DNA from: Aeromicrobium sp. A1-2
GTDB lineage: Bacteria; Actinomycetota; Actinomycetes; Propionibacteriales; Nocardioidaceae
DNA: 64,000 nt
Assembly (NCBI RefSeq): GCF_003443875.1
Contig: NZ_CP027482.1
Span: forward strand, 2,294,001 to 2,358,000
Reading direction: 5' to 3'
Under the pieces are notes generated by a model. It saw only the letters and a list, made by a program, of their open reading frames with translations. It did no database searches and had not been told where the DNA came from. Each line of letters begins with the position of its first letter. The first letter of the stretch is position 1. Shown piece by piece: positions 9,242-16,080 of the stretch. The position numbers and the translations under genes are program-made.

Positions 9242-9529
9242 TCAGGCCGGGCCGCGATTCGCACCGTCGGCGCCTCGCCCCGTCGCCCCGGACACCTGCT
9301 GGCCCTGACCCTGCCCGGGCGGCTGACCCACTCGCCCTTGCTGGCCCGTCTGGCCCGGACCTTGTCCCTGTGCGCCGCCGGCGCGGCCGCCACGGGCATC
9401 CTGCGTCCCGCCCGCTGCGCCGAGCGCGGCACCGGCGCCGAGTCCCAGCACCACCACAGCGATCGCTGCAGCCGCGAGCGTACGGGTCGACCAGGTCCTG
9501 GTGGGAGGCATGTCGCTGTGCTGACTCAT
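9242..9529 (-). CDS. Small membrane-anchored Gly/Gln-rich protein
   Basis: 95 aa: a short cytoplasmic start, one hydrophobic segment (about 17-39), then a low-complexity tail of Gly, Gln, Ala and Arg with blocks such as GGRAGGAQGQGPGQ. The tail closely resembles the low-complexity insert in the GT39 glycosyltransferase at 11.9-14.0 kb (GGGRAGGAGGGPTGQ). The gene is divergent from the response regulator, and its upstream region carries one of the three TCACAG direct-repeat sites. I do not know a family for it. The function could be as partner or acceptor for the glycosyltransferases, which is inference. Confidence 0.65.
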   Translation of the reverse strand: MSQHSDMPPTRTWSTRTLAAAAIAVVVLGLGAGAALGAAGGTQDARGGRAGGAQGQGPGQTGQQGRVGQPPGQGQGQQVSGATGRGADGANRGPA

Positions 9530-9551
9530 GCGGACACTGTCGAGCCGCGAC

Positions 9552-9568
9552 CTGTCAGGCCCCTGTGA
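9552..9568 (-). promoter_or_regulatory. TCACAG-n5-TGACAG direct repeat upstream of the small membrane protein gene
   Basis: Read on the minus strand the site is TCACAG GGGCC TGACAG, two hexamers with an 11-bp period, pointing at the gene starting at 9529. It matches the arrangement of PhoP-type boxes (TCACAGC repeats, 11 bp apart) and of the sites at 9598 and 11862. Confidence 0.6.
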
Positions 9569-9597
9569 TTCCCCCTAATGAAGACTGGGACCACCAA

Positions 9598-9614
9598 TCA
9601 CAGGTTGCTCACAG
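9598..9614 (+). promoter_or_regulatory. TCACAG-n5-TCACAG direct repeat upstream of the response regulator gene
   Basis: Two perfect TCACAG hexamers at 9598 and 9609, with a degenerate third (TCTCAC) in the same 11-bp phase at 9620. It lies 45-61 bases before the response-regulator start, suggesting autoregulation by a PhoP-like protein. The binding protein is inferred. Confidence 0.65.
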
Positions 9615-9658
9615 GCAGTTCTCACCCAGCCCCCGGCCAGGGGACGCACACTGGATGC

Positions 9659-10375
9659 ATGGCCTCATCACTGACACGGGCGGACGGGGCGCCTCTGCGC
9701 GTCCTGGTCGTCGACGACGAGATCAACATCGCCGAGCTGCTGCAGATGGCGCTGCGCTATGAGGGCTGGGACATCCAGATGGCCCACACGGGCCGCCAGG
9801 CGGTCACGGCGGCCAAGGAGTTCGGACCCGACGCGATCGTGCTCGACATGATGCTGCCGGACTTCGACGGCATGGAGGTCCTGCGCAAGGTTCGCGCTGA
9901 TGCCCCCGAGATCCCGGTGCTGTTCCTCACCGCGCGCGACTCGGTCGAGGACCGCGTCGCCGGGCTCACCGCGGGCGGTGACGACTATGTGACCAAGCCG
10001 TTCAGCCTCGAGGAGGTCGTGGCCCGGCTCCGTGGTCTGATGCGCCGCGCCGGTGCGCTGGACGCACGGCCCAGCTCGGTCATCACGGTCGGTGACCTGA
10101 GCCTGGACGAGGACAGCCGCGACGTCGAGCGGGACGGCCGCGAGATCGACCTGACCGCGACCGAGTTCGAGCTGCTGCGCTTCCTGATGCGCAACCCACG
10201 GCGGGTCCTGTCCAAGGCGCAGATCCTCGACCGGGTGTGGGACTACGACTTCGGCGGCCAGGCCAACATCGTCGAGCTCTACATCTCCTATCTCCGCAAG
10301 AAGATCGATGCCGGCCACGCGCCGATGATCCACACCAAGCGCGGCGCCGGCTACGTCCTCAAGCCTGTGGACTAG
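9659..10375 (+). CDS. PhoP-like OmpR-family response regulator
   Basis: 238 aa. Receiver domain (about 13-125) with the acidic pair DD19-20, phosphoacceptor Asp63 (VLDMMLPDFDG) and Lys in YVTKPFSLEEVVARLR; C-terminal winged-helix domain (about 140-236) with YDFGGQANIVELYISYLRKK. The sequence around the receiver end and recognition helix is strongly PhoP-like as in mycobacteria. I chose the ATG at 9659, since the longer frame from 9578 would run through the TCACAG operator. The kinase follows after three bases. Direct repeats typical for PhoP lie before this gene, before the divergent small gene and before the glycosyltransferase operon, so the protein probably controls all three. Confidence 0.92.
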   Translation: MASSLTRADGAPLRVLVVDDEINIAELLQMALRYEGWDIQMAHTGRQAVTAAKEFGPDAIVLDMMLPDFDGMEVLRKVRADAPEIPVLFLTARDSVEDRVAGLTAGGDDYVTKPFSLEEVVARLRGLMRRAGALDARPSSVITVGDLSLDEDSRDVERDGREIDLTATEFELLRFLMRNPRRVLSKAQILDRVWDYDFGGQANIVELYISYLRKKIDAGHAPMIHTKRGAGYVLKPVD

Positions 10376-10378
10376 CGC

Positions 10379-11836
10379 ATGCGCACACTGCTGCCCGCCT
10401 CGCTGACCGGGCGACTCGTCATGACCTCGGTGGCACTCGTCGCCGTGGTCAGTCTCCTGATCGGGGTCGTGGCCACGATCGTGATGCGGTCCTACCTCAT
10501 GAACCGTCTGGATGACCAGCTCGGCCAGTCCCTCGACCGCGCCCAAAGTGCCGTCAGGGGCGACGGAGGCGCCGGTCCGTCCGGCCAGGACGGACGTACC
10601 CCTGACGGGTCGTTCGGCGGCGACACCCCACGCATCCCGTTCGGTCAGGGCGCCGGAAGCATCACGACGTTCTTCGACGCAGAGGGCCTGCGTGGTGTCG
10701 TCATCACGGCATCCGGCGAGCGCAAGGCACTCTCCCGCACAGCGCTCCAGAAGATGTCTGCGGTCGAGGTCAACGAGGATCCCCGATCGATCGAGCTACC
10801 GGCTCTCGGCACCTACCGCGTCGCCGCGACGACGACCCCGACGGGCGGCATCGTCTGGCAGGCGCTGCCCGCCGACGAGGTCGACGGGACGATCTCGAGC
10901 CTGATCTGGTGGGAGAGCCTGCTGGCGCTCGGCGGCACCGTCGCGGCGGCGGGTGCGGGACGCGTCCTCGTACGCCGCCAGCTCCGGCCCCTGCGCGACG
11001 TCGCGACAACTGCGCACCAGGTCACCGCCATGCCCCTCGCCTCCGGAGAGATCGGTGAGATAGGTCGCGTACCAGCCCACCTGACCGATCCGGCGACGGA
11101 GGTCGGCCAGGTCGGCGAGGCTCTCAACCAGATGCTCGGCCATGTCGAGGAGGCCCTCGACGCCCGCCACGAGAGCGAGCAGCAGGTGCGACAGTTCCTC
11201 GCGGACGCCTCGCACGAGCTGCGCACCCCCCTGTCGACGATCAAGGGCTACGCCGAGCTCAGTCGGCGGACCGGCCGCGACGATCCGGACCAGATCCTCG
11301 CGAAGGTCGAGTCGGAGGCGGGTCGCATGTCGTCCCTCGTCGAGGACATGCTGCTGCTGGCCCGCCTCGACGCGGGACGCGAGGTCGATCGTCGCCCCGT
11401 CGACCTGACCCGTCTGGTCGTCGAGGCGGTCAACGATGCGCGGGTCGTCGACCCCGAGCGGCACTGGACGTTCGACGTGCCCGACGAGCCCGTCACCGTG
11501 ATCGGCGACGAGCTGCGACTGCACCAGGCCGTCACCAACCTGTTGACGAACGCCAGCCGGCACACCCCCCCGCAGACGACGGTCGACGTCCGCCTGCGGC
11601 TCGGCGACGACATACAGGTCGAGGTCCACGATGACGGTCCGGGCATCGACCCCGCACTCGTGCCGACGATCTTCGAGCGGTTCGTGCGCGGCGACTCCTC
11701 CCGCACCCGAGCCTCCGGAGGCGCGGGCCTGGGCATGTCGCTGGTCCGCGCGATCATGCACGCCCACCAGGGCTCTGCGACGGTCACGAGCTCTCCCGGC
11801 GACACGACCTTCACCCTGACGCTGCCCGCCTCCTGA
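10379..11836 (+). CDS. Sensor histidine kinase partner of the PhoP-like regulator
   Basis: 485 aa membrane kinase. Two membrane segments (about 12-36 and 180-202) enclose an extracytoplasmic sensor region of roughly 145 residues with a Gly/Asp-rich stretch; then HAMP, the phosphoacceptor box FLADASHELRTPLSTI with His279, and an HATPase domain (about 375-485) with N-box NLLTNASRHTPP and GGAGLGMSLV. It is encoded three bases after the response regulator, so they form a cognate pair. The signal is unknown; related PhoR kinases respond to acid or envelope cues, which I cannot infer here. Confidence 0.92.
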   Translation: MRTLLPASLTGRLVMTSVALVAVVSLLIGVVATIVMRSYLMNRLDDQLGQSLDRAQSAVRGDGGAGPSGQDGRTPDGSFGGDTPRIPFGQGAGSITTFFDAEGLRGVVITASGERKALSRTALQKMSAVEVNEDPRSIELPALGTYRVAATTTPTGGIVWQALPADEVDGTISSLIWWESLLALGGTVAAAGAGRVLVRRQLRPLRDVATTAHQVTAMPLASGEIGEIGRVPAHLTDPATEVGQVGEALNQMLGHVEEALDARHESEQQVRQFLADASHELRTPLSTIKGYAELSRRTGRDDPDQILAKVESEAGRMSSLVEDMLLLARLDAGREVDRRPVDLTRLVVEAVNDARVVDPERHWTFDVPDEPVTVIGDELRLHQAVTNLLTNASRHTPPQTTVDVRLRLGDDIQVEVHDDGPGIDPALVPTIFERFVRGDSSRTRASGGAGLGMSLVRAIMHAHQGSATVTSSPGDTTFTLTLPAS

Positions 11837-11861
11837 ACGGCCCGGCCTGACCGGTAGGCGG

Positions 11862-11878
11862 TCACAGGAGGGGCACAG
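11862..11878 (+). promoter_or_regulatory. TCACAG-n5-GCACAG direct repeat upstream of the glycosyltransferase operon
   Basis: TCACAG at 11862 and GCACAG at 11873, 11 bp apart, with a degenerate third element (CCACAC) in phase at 11884. It sits 45-61 bases before the GT39 start, the same distance as the site before the response regulator. It probably places the glycosyltransferases under the same regulator. Confidence 0.6.
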
Positions 11879-11922
11879 ACGGACCACACGGCCGCCCCAG
11901 AGCGCACTCGCACTGTGGGGGT

Positions 11923-13974
11923 ATGAACCAGACCACCCTCATCGCTCCCCCGCTCGAGCGCGGCGCCACCGGGGCCGAAGCACCCGTCCGCCCCGGCCGC
12001 TCGGCCACCTGGCTCGCCCGTACCCTGCGCGGTCGACCGGACGACTCCCCGCTCGTGCGTCCCGCTCTGATGGCGCTGCTGGTCGCGAGCGGCCTGCTCT
12101 ACCTCTGGGGCCTCGGCGCCTCCGGCTGGGCGAACTCGTTCTACTCCGCAGCGGTGCAGGCCGGCTCGGAATCATGGAAGGCCTTCTTCTTCGGCTCCTC
12201 CGACGCGGCCAACTCGATCACGGTCGACAAGACGCCCATGGCGCTGTGGCCCATGGCGCTGTCGGTCCGCCTGTTCGGACTGTCGTCGTGGAGCATGCTC
12301 GCGCCCCAGGCGTTGATGGGGGTGGGCTCGGTCGGGCTGTTGTACGTCACGGTTCGGCGCTCGACCAGCAACGCGTGGGCCGGCCTGTTCGCTGGTGCGG
12401 TCCTGGCACTGACCCCCGTCGCGGTCCTGATGTTCCGGTTCAACAACCCCGACGCGCTGCTGACCCTCCTGCTGATCGCGGCGGTGTACGCCACGATCCG
12501 GGCGATCGAGTCACCCGAACGAGCCGTGCGCTGGCTCGTGCTCGGCGGGACGCTGGTCGGACTCGCCTTCCTCACCAAGATGATGCAGGCCTTCCTGGTG
12601 CTGCCTCCGCTGGTCATGGTCTACCTCGTCGCGGCGACCCCGCCGTTCGGCCGGCGCATCCTGCACCTGCTCGCCGCATTCGGCTCGATGATCCTCGCCG
12701 CGGGTTGGTGGATCGCAATCGTCGAGCTGTGGCCCGCCTCCAGCCGTCCGTACATCGGCGGCTCGCAGAACAACTCGATCCTCGAGCTGACCCTGGGCTA
12801 CAACGGTTTCGGCCGGCTCAACGGCAATGAGGTCGGCTCCGTCGGCGGAGGCAACACCGCCGGTGGTGGCAACTGGGGCGAGACCGGGCTGCTGCGCATG
12901 TTCAGCTCCGAGATCGGCGGTCAGATCGCCTGGCTGCTGCCGGCCGCACTGGCCCTGCTGGTGCTCGGCCTGTGGTTCCTCCGCAGTGCCGGGCGCACCG
13001 ACCAGCGAATCGTCGGACTCGTCGTGTGGGGCGGCTGGCTCGTCGTGACCGCGCTGACGTTCAGCCTCATGGCTGGCATCTTCCATGCGTACTACACCGT
13101 CGCGCTGGCCCCCGCGATCGCCGCGGTCGTCGCGATCGGCGCAGCCGTCCTGTGGGACCACCGCGAGTCGCTCGTGGCAACCCTCGGCGCAGCCTTCGTC
13201 ATCGCGATGACGGCAGCGATGAGCTTCACCCTCCTCGGCCGGTCCGCGGACTTCCTGCCCTGGCTCAAGTACGTCGTGCTGGTGACCGGGGTGGTGTCTG
13301 CGGTCCTGCTGGTCCTGCACCGGATGCTGCCGCGCCGCGCGATGCTCGCGGTCGCCGGAGCCATCCTCATCACGGCCCTCGCCGGCCCCACGGCATACGC
13401 CGTCGACACGGCGTCCACACCGCACACGGGATCGATCCCCAGCGCTGGCCCGAGCACCGGGAGCAGCGTTGGAGGCGGCGGAGGACGCGCCGGAGGTGCG
13501 GGAGGCGGCCCCACCGGGCAACGCCCGGCACAGCAGGGCCAAGCGCAGCAGGGCCAAGCTGGCGGCCAGGCCAACCAGGGGCAGGGCACGACCGGAGGTC
13601 TGTTGTCCGGCTCGGAGTCGACTGACGCGATCGACGCGCTCCTGACTGCCGACTCCGGCTCCTACACCTGGGTTGCCGCCGCAGTCGGCGCCAACACGGC
13701 GGCGGGTTATCAGCTCGCCACGGAGCTTCCGGTCATGTCAATCGGCGGCTTCAACGGCTCGGATCCCAGCCCGACGCTGGAGCGGTTCCAGCAGAACGTT
13801 GCCGACGGCGAGGTCCACTACTTCATCGCCAGCACCGACGCTGGCGGCAGAGGCGGCCCGGGAGCCTCGAGCACCGGCACGAGCTCGCAGATCTCGACCT
13901 GGGTGTCCGAAAGCTTCACCGCCCAGACCGTCGACGGTGTCACGGTCTACGATCTCTCGGGCGGCATCCAGTGA
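11923..13974 (+). CDS. GT39/YkcB-like membrane glycosyltransferase with Gly/Gln-rich insert
   Basis: 683 aa. About a dozen membrane segments over the first 490 residues, with the catalytic-loop pattern DKTPMALWPMAL (about 102-113) seen in ArnT/YkcB-type GT-C enzymes that use polyprenyl-phosphate sugars. Residues about 496-560 are a Gly/Gln/Ala-rich low-complexity segment, followed by an extracytoplasmic C-terminal domain (about 565-683; ALLTADSGSYTWVAAAVGAN) typical of YkcB proteins. The stop overlaps the GTG of the following GT2-GtrA gene. Together they form a lipid-linked sugar route: the GT2 domain makes the polyprenyl-sugar, GtrA may help flip it, and this enzyme transfers the sugar outside. 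The acceptor is unknown. Confidence 0.85.
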   Translation: MNQTTLIAPPLERGATGAEAPVRPGRSATWLARTLRGRPDDSPLVRPALMALLVASGLLYLWGLGASGWANSFYSAAVQAGSESWKAFFFGSSDAANSITVDKTPMALWPMALSVRLFGLSSWSMLAPQALMGVGSVGLLYVTVRRSTSNAWAGLFAGAVLALTPVAVLMFRFNNPDALLTLLLIAAVYATIRAIESPERAVRWLVLGGTLVGLAFLTKMMQAFLVLPPLVMVYLVAATPPFGRRILHLLAAFGSMILAAGWWIAIVELWPASSRPYIGGSQNNSILELTLGYNGFGRLNGNEVGSVGGGNTAGGGNWGETGLLRMFSSEIGGQIAWLLPAALALLVLGLWFLRSAGRTDQRIVGLVVWGGWLVVTALTFSLMAGIFHAYYTVALAPAIAAVVAIGAAVLWDHRESLVATLGAAFVIAMTAAMSFTLLGRSADFLPWLKYVVLVTGVVSAVLLVLHRMLPRRAMLAVAGAILITALAGPTAYAVDTASTPHTGSIPSAGPSTGSSVGGGGGRAGGAGGGPTGQRPAQQGQAQQGQAGGQANQGQGTTGGLLSGSESTDAIDALLTADSGSYTWVAAAVGANTAAGYQLATELPVMSIGGFNGSDPSPTLERFQQNVADGEVHYFIASTDAGGRGGPGASSTGTSSQISTWVSESFTAQTVDGVTVYDLSGGIQ

Positions 13975-15194
13975 CCGCCGTGCAGACGCTCGTCGAGCAG
14001 ACACAGGTGGGCACCACTGCGCTGGACATTGTGATCCCGGTCCACAACGAGGAGAGCACCCTGGTCGCCTCGGTCGAGACCGTACGAGCCCACCTGCGCA
14101 TGTTGCCGTACACGTCCCGCGTAACGATCGCCGACAACGCCAGCACCGACGGGACGAGCCTGCTGGCCCATGAGCTGGCGCATCAGCACCCCGATGTCTC
14201 GGTCGTCTCGCTGGCCCGCAAGGGCCGAGGCCGGGCGCTCAAGCAGGCCTGGTCCCAGTCCGATGCGGATGTGCTGGTCTACATGGACGTCGACCTGTCG
14301 ACCGACCTCAACGCGCTGCTGCCGCTCGTCGCTCCACTGCTGTCGGGGCACTCCGACCTGGCGATCGGCTCCCGCCTGGCCAGGTCGTCCCGGACAACGC
14401 GCGGCCCCAAGCGCGAGCTGATCTCCCGGACGTACAACGTGCTGCTGCGCAGCGCGTTGCGAGCCCGGTTCTCGGACGCGCAGTGCGGCTTCAAGGCGAT
14501 CCGTCGCGATGTCGCGGCACAGCTCCTCCCGCTCATCGAGGACGACGAGTGGTTCTTCGACACCGAGCTCCTGGTCGTCGCCGAACGGGCCGGCTTGCGG
14601 ATCCACGAGGTGCCGGTCGACTGGATCGACGATCCGGACAGCAAGGTCGACATAGTGCGGACCGCGGCGGCGGACCTGCGCGGCATGGGCCGATTGGGCT
14701 TGGCGCTGCTGCGCGGCCGCGTGCCGTTGGCCGCGGTCGCCCAGGCGCTCGGTCGGACCTCGGCCCGCAGCGCGGGCGGGCGACTCAGCGCCCAGATGGT
14801 CGTGTTCGCCATGGTCGGGATTCTGTCGACCTTGGCGTACGGCGTCCTCTATGTTGCGCTGCGCGGCAGGCTCGGCGCGCAGGAGGCCAATGCGATTGCA
14901 CTGGCGGCGACCGCGATCGCCAACACGGCGGCCAACCGGCGCTTCACCTTCGGCTTCCGCGGACCAGAGGGGGCACTCCGGCACCAGCTCCAGGGCCTGC
15001 TGGTGTTCGCCTGCGGGCTCGGCGTCACGGCCGGCACTCTGTGGGCCATGCGTGCGGTCGGCGGCGACGGTCATCCACTCGTCGAGGTCGTGCTGCTGAC
15101 GGCGGCGAACCTGTTCGTGACCGGGATGCGATTCGTGCTGATGCGGGTCTGGATCTTCGGCTCGGCGGAGTCCGCTGCCGCCGGCACGACGTGA
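13971..15194 (+). CDS. GT2-GtrA fusion (polyprenyl-phosphate glycosyltransferase/flippase-like)
   Basis: 407 aa, GTG start overlapping the preceding stop (GTGA). The N-terminal GT2 domain (about 15-245) has VIPVHNEEST, the DxD metal motif in YMDVDLST (Asp106-Asp108) and QCGFKAIRRD. The C-terminal GtrA domain (about 270-395) has four membrane segments, with ANTAANRRFTFGFRG. The arrangement matches DPM1-like enzymes that charge polyprenyl phosphate with a sugar. It is coupled to the GT39 enzyme, so it probably supplies its donor. The sugar cannot be predicted. Confidence 0.9.
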   Translation: MTAVQTLVEQTQVGTTALDIVIPVHNEESTLVASVETVRAHLRMLPYTSRVTIADNASTDGTSLLAHELAHQHPDVSVVSLARKGRGRALKQAWSQSDADVLVYMDVDLSTDLNALLPLVAPLLSGHSDLAIGSRLARSSRTTRGPKRELISRTYNVLLRSALRARFSDAQCGFKAIRRDVAAQLLPLIEDDEWFFDTELLVVAERAGLRIHEVPVDWIDDPDSKVDIVRTAAADLRGMGRLGLALLRGRVPLAAVAQALGRTSARSAGGRLSAQMVVFAMVGILSTLAYGVLYVALRGRLGAQEANAIALAATAIANTAANRRFTFGFRGPEGALRHQLQGLLVFACGLGVTAGTLWAMRAVGGDGHPLVEVVLLTAANLFVTGMRFVLMRVWIFGSAESAAAGTT

Positions 15195-15324
15195 TCCTCA
15201 CGACGCACCCTGTTGTCTCGGCCACCGTCATGCACCAAGATCATCGTGTGGCGCCACCGGCGCCGCCCATCCCGCCGACGGACGCAGCATCCCGCCCGGC
15301 AGCACCTGACAGAGAGTGACGACC

Positions 15325-16080
15325 ATGGCTCAGAAACAGTCCATCCTGGGGCGCATCGGTCAGCTGACCCGCGCCAACATCAACTCCCTCCTCGACAAGG
15401 CCGAAGATCCGGAGAAGATGCTCGACCAGCTGGTCCGCGACTACACCAGCTCGATTGCCGAGGCCGAGCAGGCCGTCGCGCAGACGATCGGCAACCTGCG
15501 GCTCGCCGAGGCGGACCATGCCGAGGACGTCACTGCCGCCAAGGAATGGGGCAGCAAGGCCCTTCGGGCGTCGCAGAAGGCCGACTCGCTGCGCACCTCG
15601 GGTCAGCCGACCGAGGCGGACAAGTTCGACAACCTGGCCAAGATCGCCCTGGGCAAGCAGATCAGCTTCGAGAACGAGGCACGGACCGAGGCTCCCCAGA
15701 TCGCCTCGCAGGGCGAGGTCGTCGAGAAGCTCAAGGTCGGCCTGATCGGCATGAAGGCCAAGCTGGGCGAGCTGCAGTCCAAGCGGGATCAGCTCGTGGC
15801 CCGGGCCAAGACCGCCGAGGCCCAGGCCAAGGTGCAGGACGCTGTTAGGTCGATCGACATCCTCGACCCCACCAGCGAGGTCTCCCGGTTCGAGGACAAG
15901 GTCCGCCGGGTCGAGGCCCAGGTCGCCGGCCGGTCCGAGCTGGCCGCGTCGAGCCTTGATGCGCAGTTCGAGGAGCTCGAGGGGGACAGCACCGCGGCCG
16001 AGGTCGAGGCACGGCTCTCCGAGCTCAAGAGCCTCGGTGCGGCGTCGTCGACTCCCGCGGTCGAGCCGGTGGCGGAATGA
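15325..16080 (+). CDS. PspA/IM30-family membrane-stress protein
   Basis: 251 aa, almost entirely alpha-helical and coiled-coil, with the amphipathic N-terminus SILGRIGQLTRANINSLLD and the diagnostic EDPEKMLDQLVRDY. PspA proteins bind stressed membranes as ESCRT-III-like oligomers. I chose the ATG at 15325, which has a GAGAG site; an in-frame GTG at 15316 is possible. No pspB/pspC or sigma-54 partner is visible, as is usual in actinobacteria. The 130 bases before it contain no gene. Confidence 0.9.
   Translation: MAQKQSILGRIGQLTRANINSLLDKAEDPEKMLDQLVRDYTSSIAEAEQAVAQTIGNLRLAEADHAEDVTAAKEWGSKALRASQKADSLRTSGQPTEADKFDNLAKIALGKQISFENEARTEAPQIASQGEVVEKLKVGLIGMKAKLGELQSKRDQLVARAKTAEAQAKVQDAVRSIDILDPTSEVSRFEDKVRRVEAQVAGRSELAASSLDAQFEELEGDSTAAEVEARLSELKSLGAASSTPAVEPVAE

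Follow-up and report, generated by a model that had tools for sequence, protein, structure and literature searches.

The OmpR/PhoB-type response regulator encoded at positions 9659 to 10375 of the DNA analysed here would bind 11-bp-phased TCACAG half-sites, regulate its own gene and drive expression of a small membrane protein and of a transmembrane glycosylation operon (GT39/GT2-GtrA), most likely by activation; we assign this reading a probability of roughly 0.8. The window, the whole stretch of 64,000 nucleotides, lies within a 3.45-Mb genome (G000) whose close relatives, where they carry names, are Aeromicrobium. We infer that the adjacent kinase phosphorylates the regulator, which would then bind the half-sites head to tail, one per 11 bp, on a grid at -61, -50, -39 and -28 relative to the start codon, the genes being probably leaderless. 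The strong pair lies at -61/-50 in front of the regulator and GT39 genes, with weaker elements onward towards the -35 region, and at -39/-28 in front of the small gene. Within each half-site, the fourth base (C here) would be read by the Asn that opens the recognition helix of the regulator. The GT2-GtrA protein may make and flip a lipid-linked sugar, which GT39 would transfer outside. The initial annotation had proposed a local regulon in which a two-component system controls surface glycosylation; sequence comparison supports the control but not the local limit, arrays of the same kind being found in other families.

The locus and its phased sites

The genes concerned are the following.

9242 to 9529, minus strand: small protein of 95 aa, with one hydrophobic segment (hydropathy) and then a Gly/Gln-rich tail
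9659 to 10375, plus strand: OmpR/PhoB-type response regulator of 238 aa (PF00072, PF00486)
10379 to 11836, plus strand: sensor histidine kinase of 485 aa (domain matches to HAMP, HisKA, HATPase_c)
11923 to 13974, plus strand: GT39/YkcB-like GT-C glycosyltransferase of 683 aa (PF13231, PF02366, PF24878), with a Gly/Gln-rich segment (composition)
13971 to 15194, plus strand: GT2 (GT-A) fused to a GtrA/DPMS transmembrane domain, 407 aa (PF00535, PF04138)

The receiver domain (PF00072) and the winged-helix Trans_reg_C domain (PF00486) of the regulator both exceed the gathering score, which places it in the OmpR/PhoB class. Among the best 25 NCBIfam models for the regulator and for the kinase, none reached its cut-off. 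The GT2-GtrA gene start (13971) overlaps the GT39 stop (13974). The small gene is divergent from the regulator gene, and its product matches no Pfam or NCBIfam family at E 0.001 and nothing in PHROGs at E 1. Gly/Gln-rich stretches with 60% G+Q over 50 residues are present in both the small protein and GT39, and a milder one (36%) follows the first hydrophobic segment of the kinase. A PspA gene lies downstream of the glycosyltransferase pair, at 15316 to 16080; at three loci where GT39 is absent (L030, L033, L034), a PspA-like gene comes after the kinase, as judged from its translated start.

The sites and promoter elements are listed below.

9598 to 9614, plus strand: TCACAGGTTGCTCACAG, TCACAG-n5-TCACAG, before the response regulator, starting 61 bp upstream of the ATG at 9659
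11862 to 11878, plus strand: TCACAGGAGGGGCACAG, TCACAG-n5-GCACAG, before the GT39 operon, starting 61 bp upstream of the ATG at 11923
9552 to 9568, minus strand: TCACAGGGGCCTGACAG, TCACAG-n5-TGACAG, before the small gene, starting 39 bp upstream of the ATG at 9529
9620 to 9625, plus strand: TCTCAC, third, weak half-site in 11-bp phase at +22, regulator promoter
11884 to 11889, plus strand: CCACAC, third phased element at +22, GT39 promoter
11895 to 11900, plus strand: CCCCAG, fourth phased element, GT39 promoter
9647 to 9652, plus strand: CACACT, candidate -10 hexamer of the regulator promoter, -12 to -7 from the ATG
11911 to 11916, plus strand: CACTGT, candidate -10 hexamer of the GT39 promoter, -12 to -7 from the ATG

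The initial annotation had reported the three repeats, an equal start distance for the two plus-strand sites and a degenerate third element in phase, and all of these hold. The repeats are found at the positions and on the strands given above, and both plus-strand sites begin 61 bp before the ATG; the small-gene site is nearer its ATG by 22 bp, that is two repeat units. The third element was followed in 57 regulator, 35 GT39 and 38 small-gene promoters, chosen by the site and its distance, the third and fourth phased elements being no selection criterion. At +22, CCACAC is strongly conserved in the GT39 promoters, and a weaker consensus, tC.cag, is found in the regulator promoters; the GT39 promoters also conserve cCCAG near +33. 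A hexamer near -12 to -7 is common to all three promoter types; its second letter is A, and its sixth T, in 90% or more of the promoters each. This conservation fits a -10 box, and transcripts probably start at or near the start codon, as in leaderless promoters.

Searching the window with at most one mismatch returned 3 matches, exactly the three sites, where 100 dinucleotide shuffles gave a mean of 0.31 and reached 3 once. The scan of the whole genome that had been proposed as a check finds the motif not randomly scattered: at most one mismatch yields 9 matches (2 exact) against 4 for the reversed control pattern, and one third of the 9 lie within 2.4 kb at this locus. The second exact match (L002) precedes a distant GT2 gene, 60 bp from its ATG. 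It was rejected as a fourth regulon member: among 26 placed orthologs (of 28), the full site is present only in G000, one ortholog (L092) matches 8 of 10 core letters in the corresponding position, and the remaining placed orthologs have 6 to 8, elsewhere. We regard it as lineage-specific or a chance match. Another match (L007) was dropped as overlapping, by eye, the start of an open frame, and a match recurring in G006, G020, G023 and G013 was dropped because it appears, again by eye, to fall at the 3' end of an opposite-strand gene and is probably a coding coincidence.

TCACA is also half of the CRP palindrome. These letters are all that the repeats have in common with a CRP site; the repeats are direct, not inverted, and spaced at 11 bp. 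The palindrome TGTGA-n6-TCACA, with one mismatch, has 2 matches in the window against 1.28 expected, neither near these promoters. We give CRP-type sites practically no chance of being the explanation.

Conservation of the sites and co-occurrence with the kinase

We aligned 91 loci around kinase matches (L009-L059 and L119-L158). Removing one without a regulator match (L058) and 5 duplicates left 85, and L059 was also left out of the site count. The latter required at least 9 of 10 core letters and compared 38 close loci (35 belonging to genus code g1, 3 to other genera) with 46 others. Relatives that keep the genes retain the sites, whose loss had been named beforehand as evidence against the regulon. 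The regulator site was found at -60 to -63 in 36/38 close loci and 21/46 others, and the GT39 site, at the same distances, in all 26 GT39-bearing close loci and in 9/10 among the others. Two of the close loci (L145, L147) lack a site at -61 from the picked start and have a strict match farther upstream in their genomes. In many of the other 46 loci the pair before the regulator gene is displaced by two units, to -39/-40. At L017 and L223 (G038:C89) a gap of about 190 bp separates regulator and kinase, with a site inside it; the ATG at the -61 distance from this site opens only 9 codons.

The small-gene site was found in 22/38 close loci and 16/46 others (38/84 overall), with -38 to -41 the sole distances permitted in the scan. 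A pair covering -39 to -23 would block RNA polymerase, and both its position and its recurrence at these scanned distances suit a repressor too. However, about 10 bp separate the end of the small-gene pair from the candidate -10 hexamer, which is the geometry of PhoB activation at pho boxes, and in the code g7 relatives the regulator gene itself often has its own pair at -39/-40. We therefore consider repression of some units possible but doubtful, and retain activation as the preferred reading.

A broader set of 165 non-identical regulator promoters comprised the 85 earlier loci and 80 loci picked by us from other families. A CAxAG pair at 11-bp spacing is present in 128 of them, and 37 have no clean pair. 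Spacings of 8 to 10 and 12 to 16 give such pairs in 0 to 6 of the 165, and shuffled promoters at spacing 11 in a mean of 0.54 (maximum 2). The grid rests on start codons picked by rule, which 20 promoters lacked. Pairs lie 61/62 bp from the start in 70 of 145 cases, 38 to 40 bp in 26 and 50/51 bp in 14. The two 11-bp phases containing 61 and 62 hold 109 of the 145 pairs, with 36 off them, and arrays of at least three half-sites occupy several grid phases by construction.

Related genomes have sequence in common, so that simple descent, like chance, has to be weighed as the origin of the sites. Among relatives, however, the half-sites are constant while the spacer letters vary, and, among the loci listed, the small-gene site stays equally far from its own start, whereas the interval between it and the regulator start changes. 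Chance is opposed by the shuffled promoters. Either origin is very improbable, and together with CRP both were rejected, on the shuffle controls, the direct repeats and the varying spacers.

Co-occurrence was examined in 49 genus genomes, where the kinase is present at E 1e-60 in 37 and absent in 12. A hand count gives 82 matches of the strict motif, TCACAG-n6-CACAG, and 30 of its reversed control. The strict motif is found in 33/37 kinase-bearing and 0/12 kinase-lacking genomes (Fisher 2e-8, relatedness ignored), and, when completeness of at least 90% and contamination of at most 5% are required, in 26/29 with and 0/8 without the kinase (Fisher 4e-6, relatedness ignored). GT39, at E 1e-60, is likewise present in 23/37 and 0/12. 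Looser patterns separate the two groups less well than the strict motif: by hand-counted totals, a -61-type pattern gives 102 matches against 44 reversed controls and a -39-type pattern 62 against 42, with matches in 2/12 and 6/12 kinase-lacking genomes, respectively. One genome (G037; L195 and L222, contig C8) has no kinase match and a regulator frame ending after 63 residues, with both divergent relaxed sites remaining.

A PhoP-like regulator and the fourth half-site base

The recognition region had been described as PhoP-like, in agreement with our comparison. The closest solved chains to the regulator are those of Mycobacterium tuberculosis PhoP, and its six base-contacting residues N, V, E, S, Y and Y are matched here by identical N, E, Y and Y, with I for V and L for S. 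Among 22 protein matches of PhoP in G000, this regulator is the best (56% identity) and the second best has 49%. In all six code-f5 genomes PhoP matches a gene 77-96% identical to it, and five of them carry a separate gene (L319-L323) that is 55-57% identical to PhoP and 67-70% to this regulator. As code-f5 genomes thus contain a relative of this regulator in addition to a PhoP ortholog, we class the present regulator as a PhoP paralog, PhoP-like but not the ortholog of M. tuberculosis PhoP.

The DNA site described for PhoP is TCACAGC-n4-TCACAGC (PMC4832192). The first six letters of our half-site and its 11-bp period match this repeat, and the seventh base is mostly G where the PhoP consensus has C. 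In the PhoP-DNA crystal, the base contacted by N212 is C7, which is the fourth letter of TCACAGC (PMC4832192).

The fourth base varies with the residue at the N212 position, the first of the recognition helix. Promoters of Asn regulators (107/141 with pairs) have C 229 times, T 7, G 3 and A 2; those of His regulators (10/13) have G 20 times, T 3 and C 2; those of Ser/Thr regulators (11/11) have T 25 times and C 4. A tree of 110 of these regulators, built with the helix masked, shows two changes of the residue and, for the majority base (80 rows with a pair), 5 changes. As the residue changes just twice, these counts represent two matched switches, not 165 independent cases. One His locus (L237) is an exception, with one each of T, C and G, and three orthologs from code-f5 genomes (L233, L234, L322) have Asn yet mainly CATAG, that is mostly T; a fourth (L321) has C only. 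Genome G401 encodes both an Asn-type system with C-type sites (L263) and a His-type system with G-type sites (L264).

We lean, with less confidence than for the core mechanism, towards a one-residue code in this PhoP subfamily (Asn with C, His with G, Ser/Thr with T) operating on the 11-bp promoter grid of an ancient, class-wide glycosylation circuit. If true, such a code would separate paralogous systems that share a cell.

The number of PhoP relatives in G000 also raises the question whether another PhoP-like paralog binds the sites, the adjacent two-component system being merely a target. PhoP genes elsewhere are themselves preceded by a similar site (in 4/6 loci, a TCACAG-like pair lies 61-65 bp upstream of the expected start), so related regulators can share the motif. 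On the other hand, the strict motif is absent where this kinase is absent, and the fourth base tracks the helix residue of this very regulator. A different regulator is thus unlikely, and binding by the product of the adjacent gene remains our preferred reading.

Extent of the proposed circuit and relation to known systems

A regulator match at 1e-75 was found in 290 of 394 class genomes, a number that may include paralogs. Among 60 loci from other families, a GT39 match near the system was found in 17. Of the 17 kinase-GT gaps, 15 contain a phased pair that matches 7 or 8 of the 8 core letters (scored with no shuffle control); in 11 of these 15 an in-frame start follows at a distance of 61 or 62 bp. 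Four loci (L252, L277, L281, L291) have other best distances in the gap, and two code-f5 loci have no pair there. The gene order at the code-f5 GT39 loci is regulator, kinase, GT39, GT2, PhoP being a different gene. With the same kind of array at regulator and glycosyltransferase promoters of other families, the circuit, as far as sequence can tell, is not merely local and extends beyond this locus and this family.

Sites were also observed before other genes. In relatives (L176, L180, L181, L184, L193, L211), the gene for a Dioxygenase_C (PF00775) protein with a lipoprotein-like start is preceded by a site, of the -61 type in G013, G019, G020, G023 and G035 but of the -39 type in G022; the family was tested for G020, G035 and G022 and assigned to the others by similar N-termini. 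The N-terminal part of the G020 protein had no match in G000, in a search run without a positive control. At L185 (G000:C1:329734), a relaxed site lies about 62 bp before the ATG of a Beta-lactamase2-family gene.

The M. tuberculosis PhoP system (PMC4832192) and the present one have in common an OmpR/PhoB regulator, the hexamer, the 11-bp period and the N/E/Y/Y residues; they differ by the 56% identity, the Leu at the S216 position, the mostly G seventh base and a glycosylation operon among the targets. The PHO boxes of Streptomyces coelicolor PhoP are 11-bp direct repeats with GTTCACC (PMC9019756, PMC4832192): the repeat unit is common to both, whereas the core letters and target genes differ. 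Gram-positive multi-component transmembrane glycosylation systems such as CsbB-GtcA-YfhO are described in an account that gives the function of Bacillus subtilis YkcBC as unknown (PMC8035078). As in these systems, GT-A, GtrA-type and GT-C proteins are encoded together here, and GT39 matches the YkcB C-terminal family. Unlike CsbB-GtcA-YfhO and YkcBC as presented there, the GT-A and GtrA parts are fused, and the module adjoins a two-component system with which it shares sites. A literature search of openly licensed papers found no description of the circuit or of the code, and excerpts of papers on Streptomyces two-component systems contained no match to this system.

Judged by these comparisons, the finding is real and larger than earlier described, with a regulator that appears to work like PhoP without being its ortholog. 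From sequence, a widespread signalling system thereby gains a predicted site, core targets and a promoter grammar. How paralogous response regulators keep off one another's sites becomes a testable question, and in several actinomycete families surface glycosylation would be tied to a two-component switch, also in code-f5 genomes, which carry a PhoP ortholog as well.
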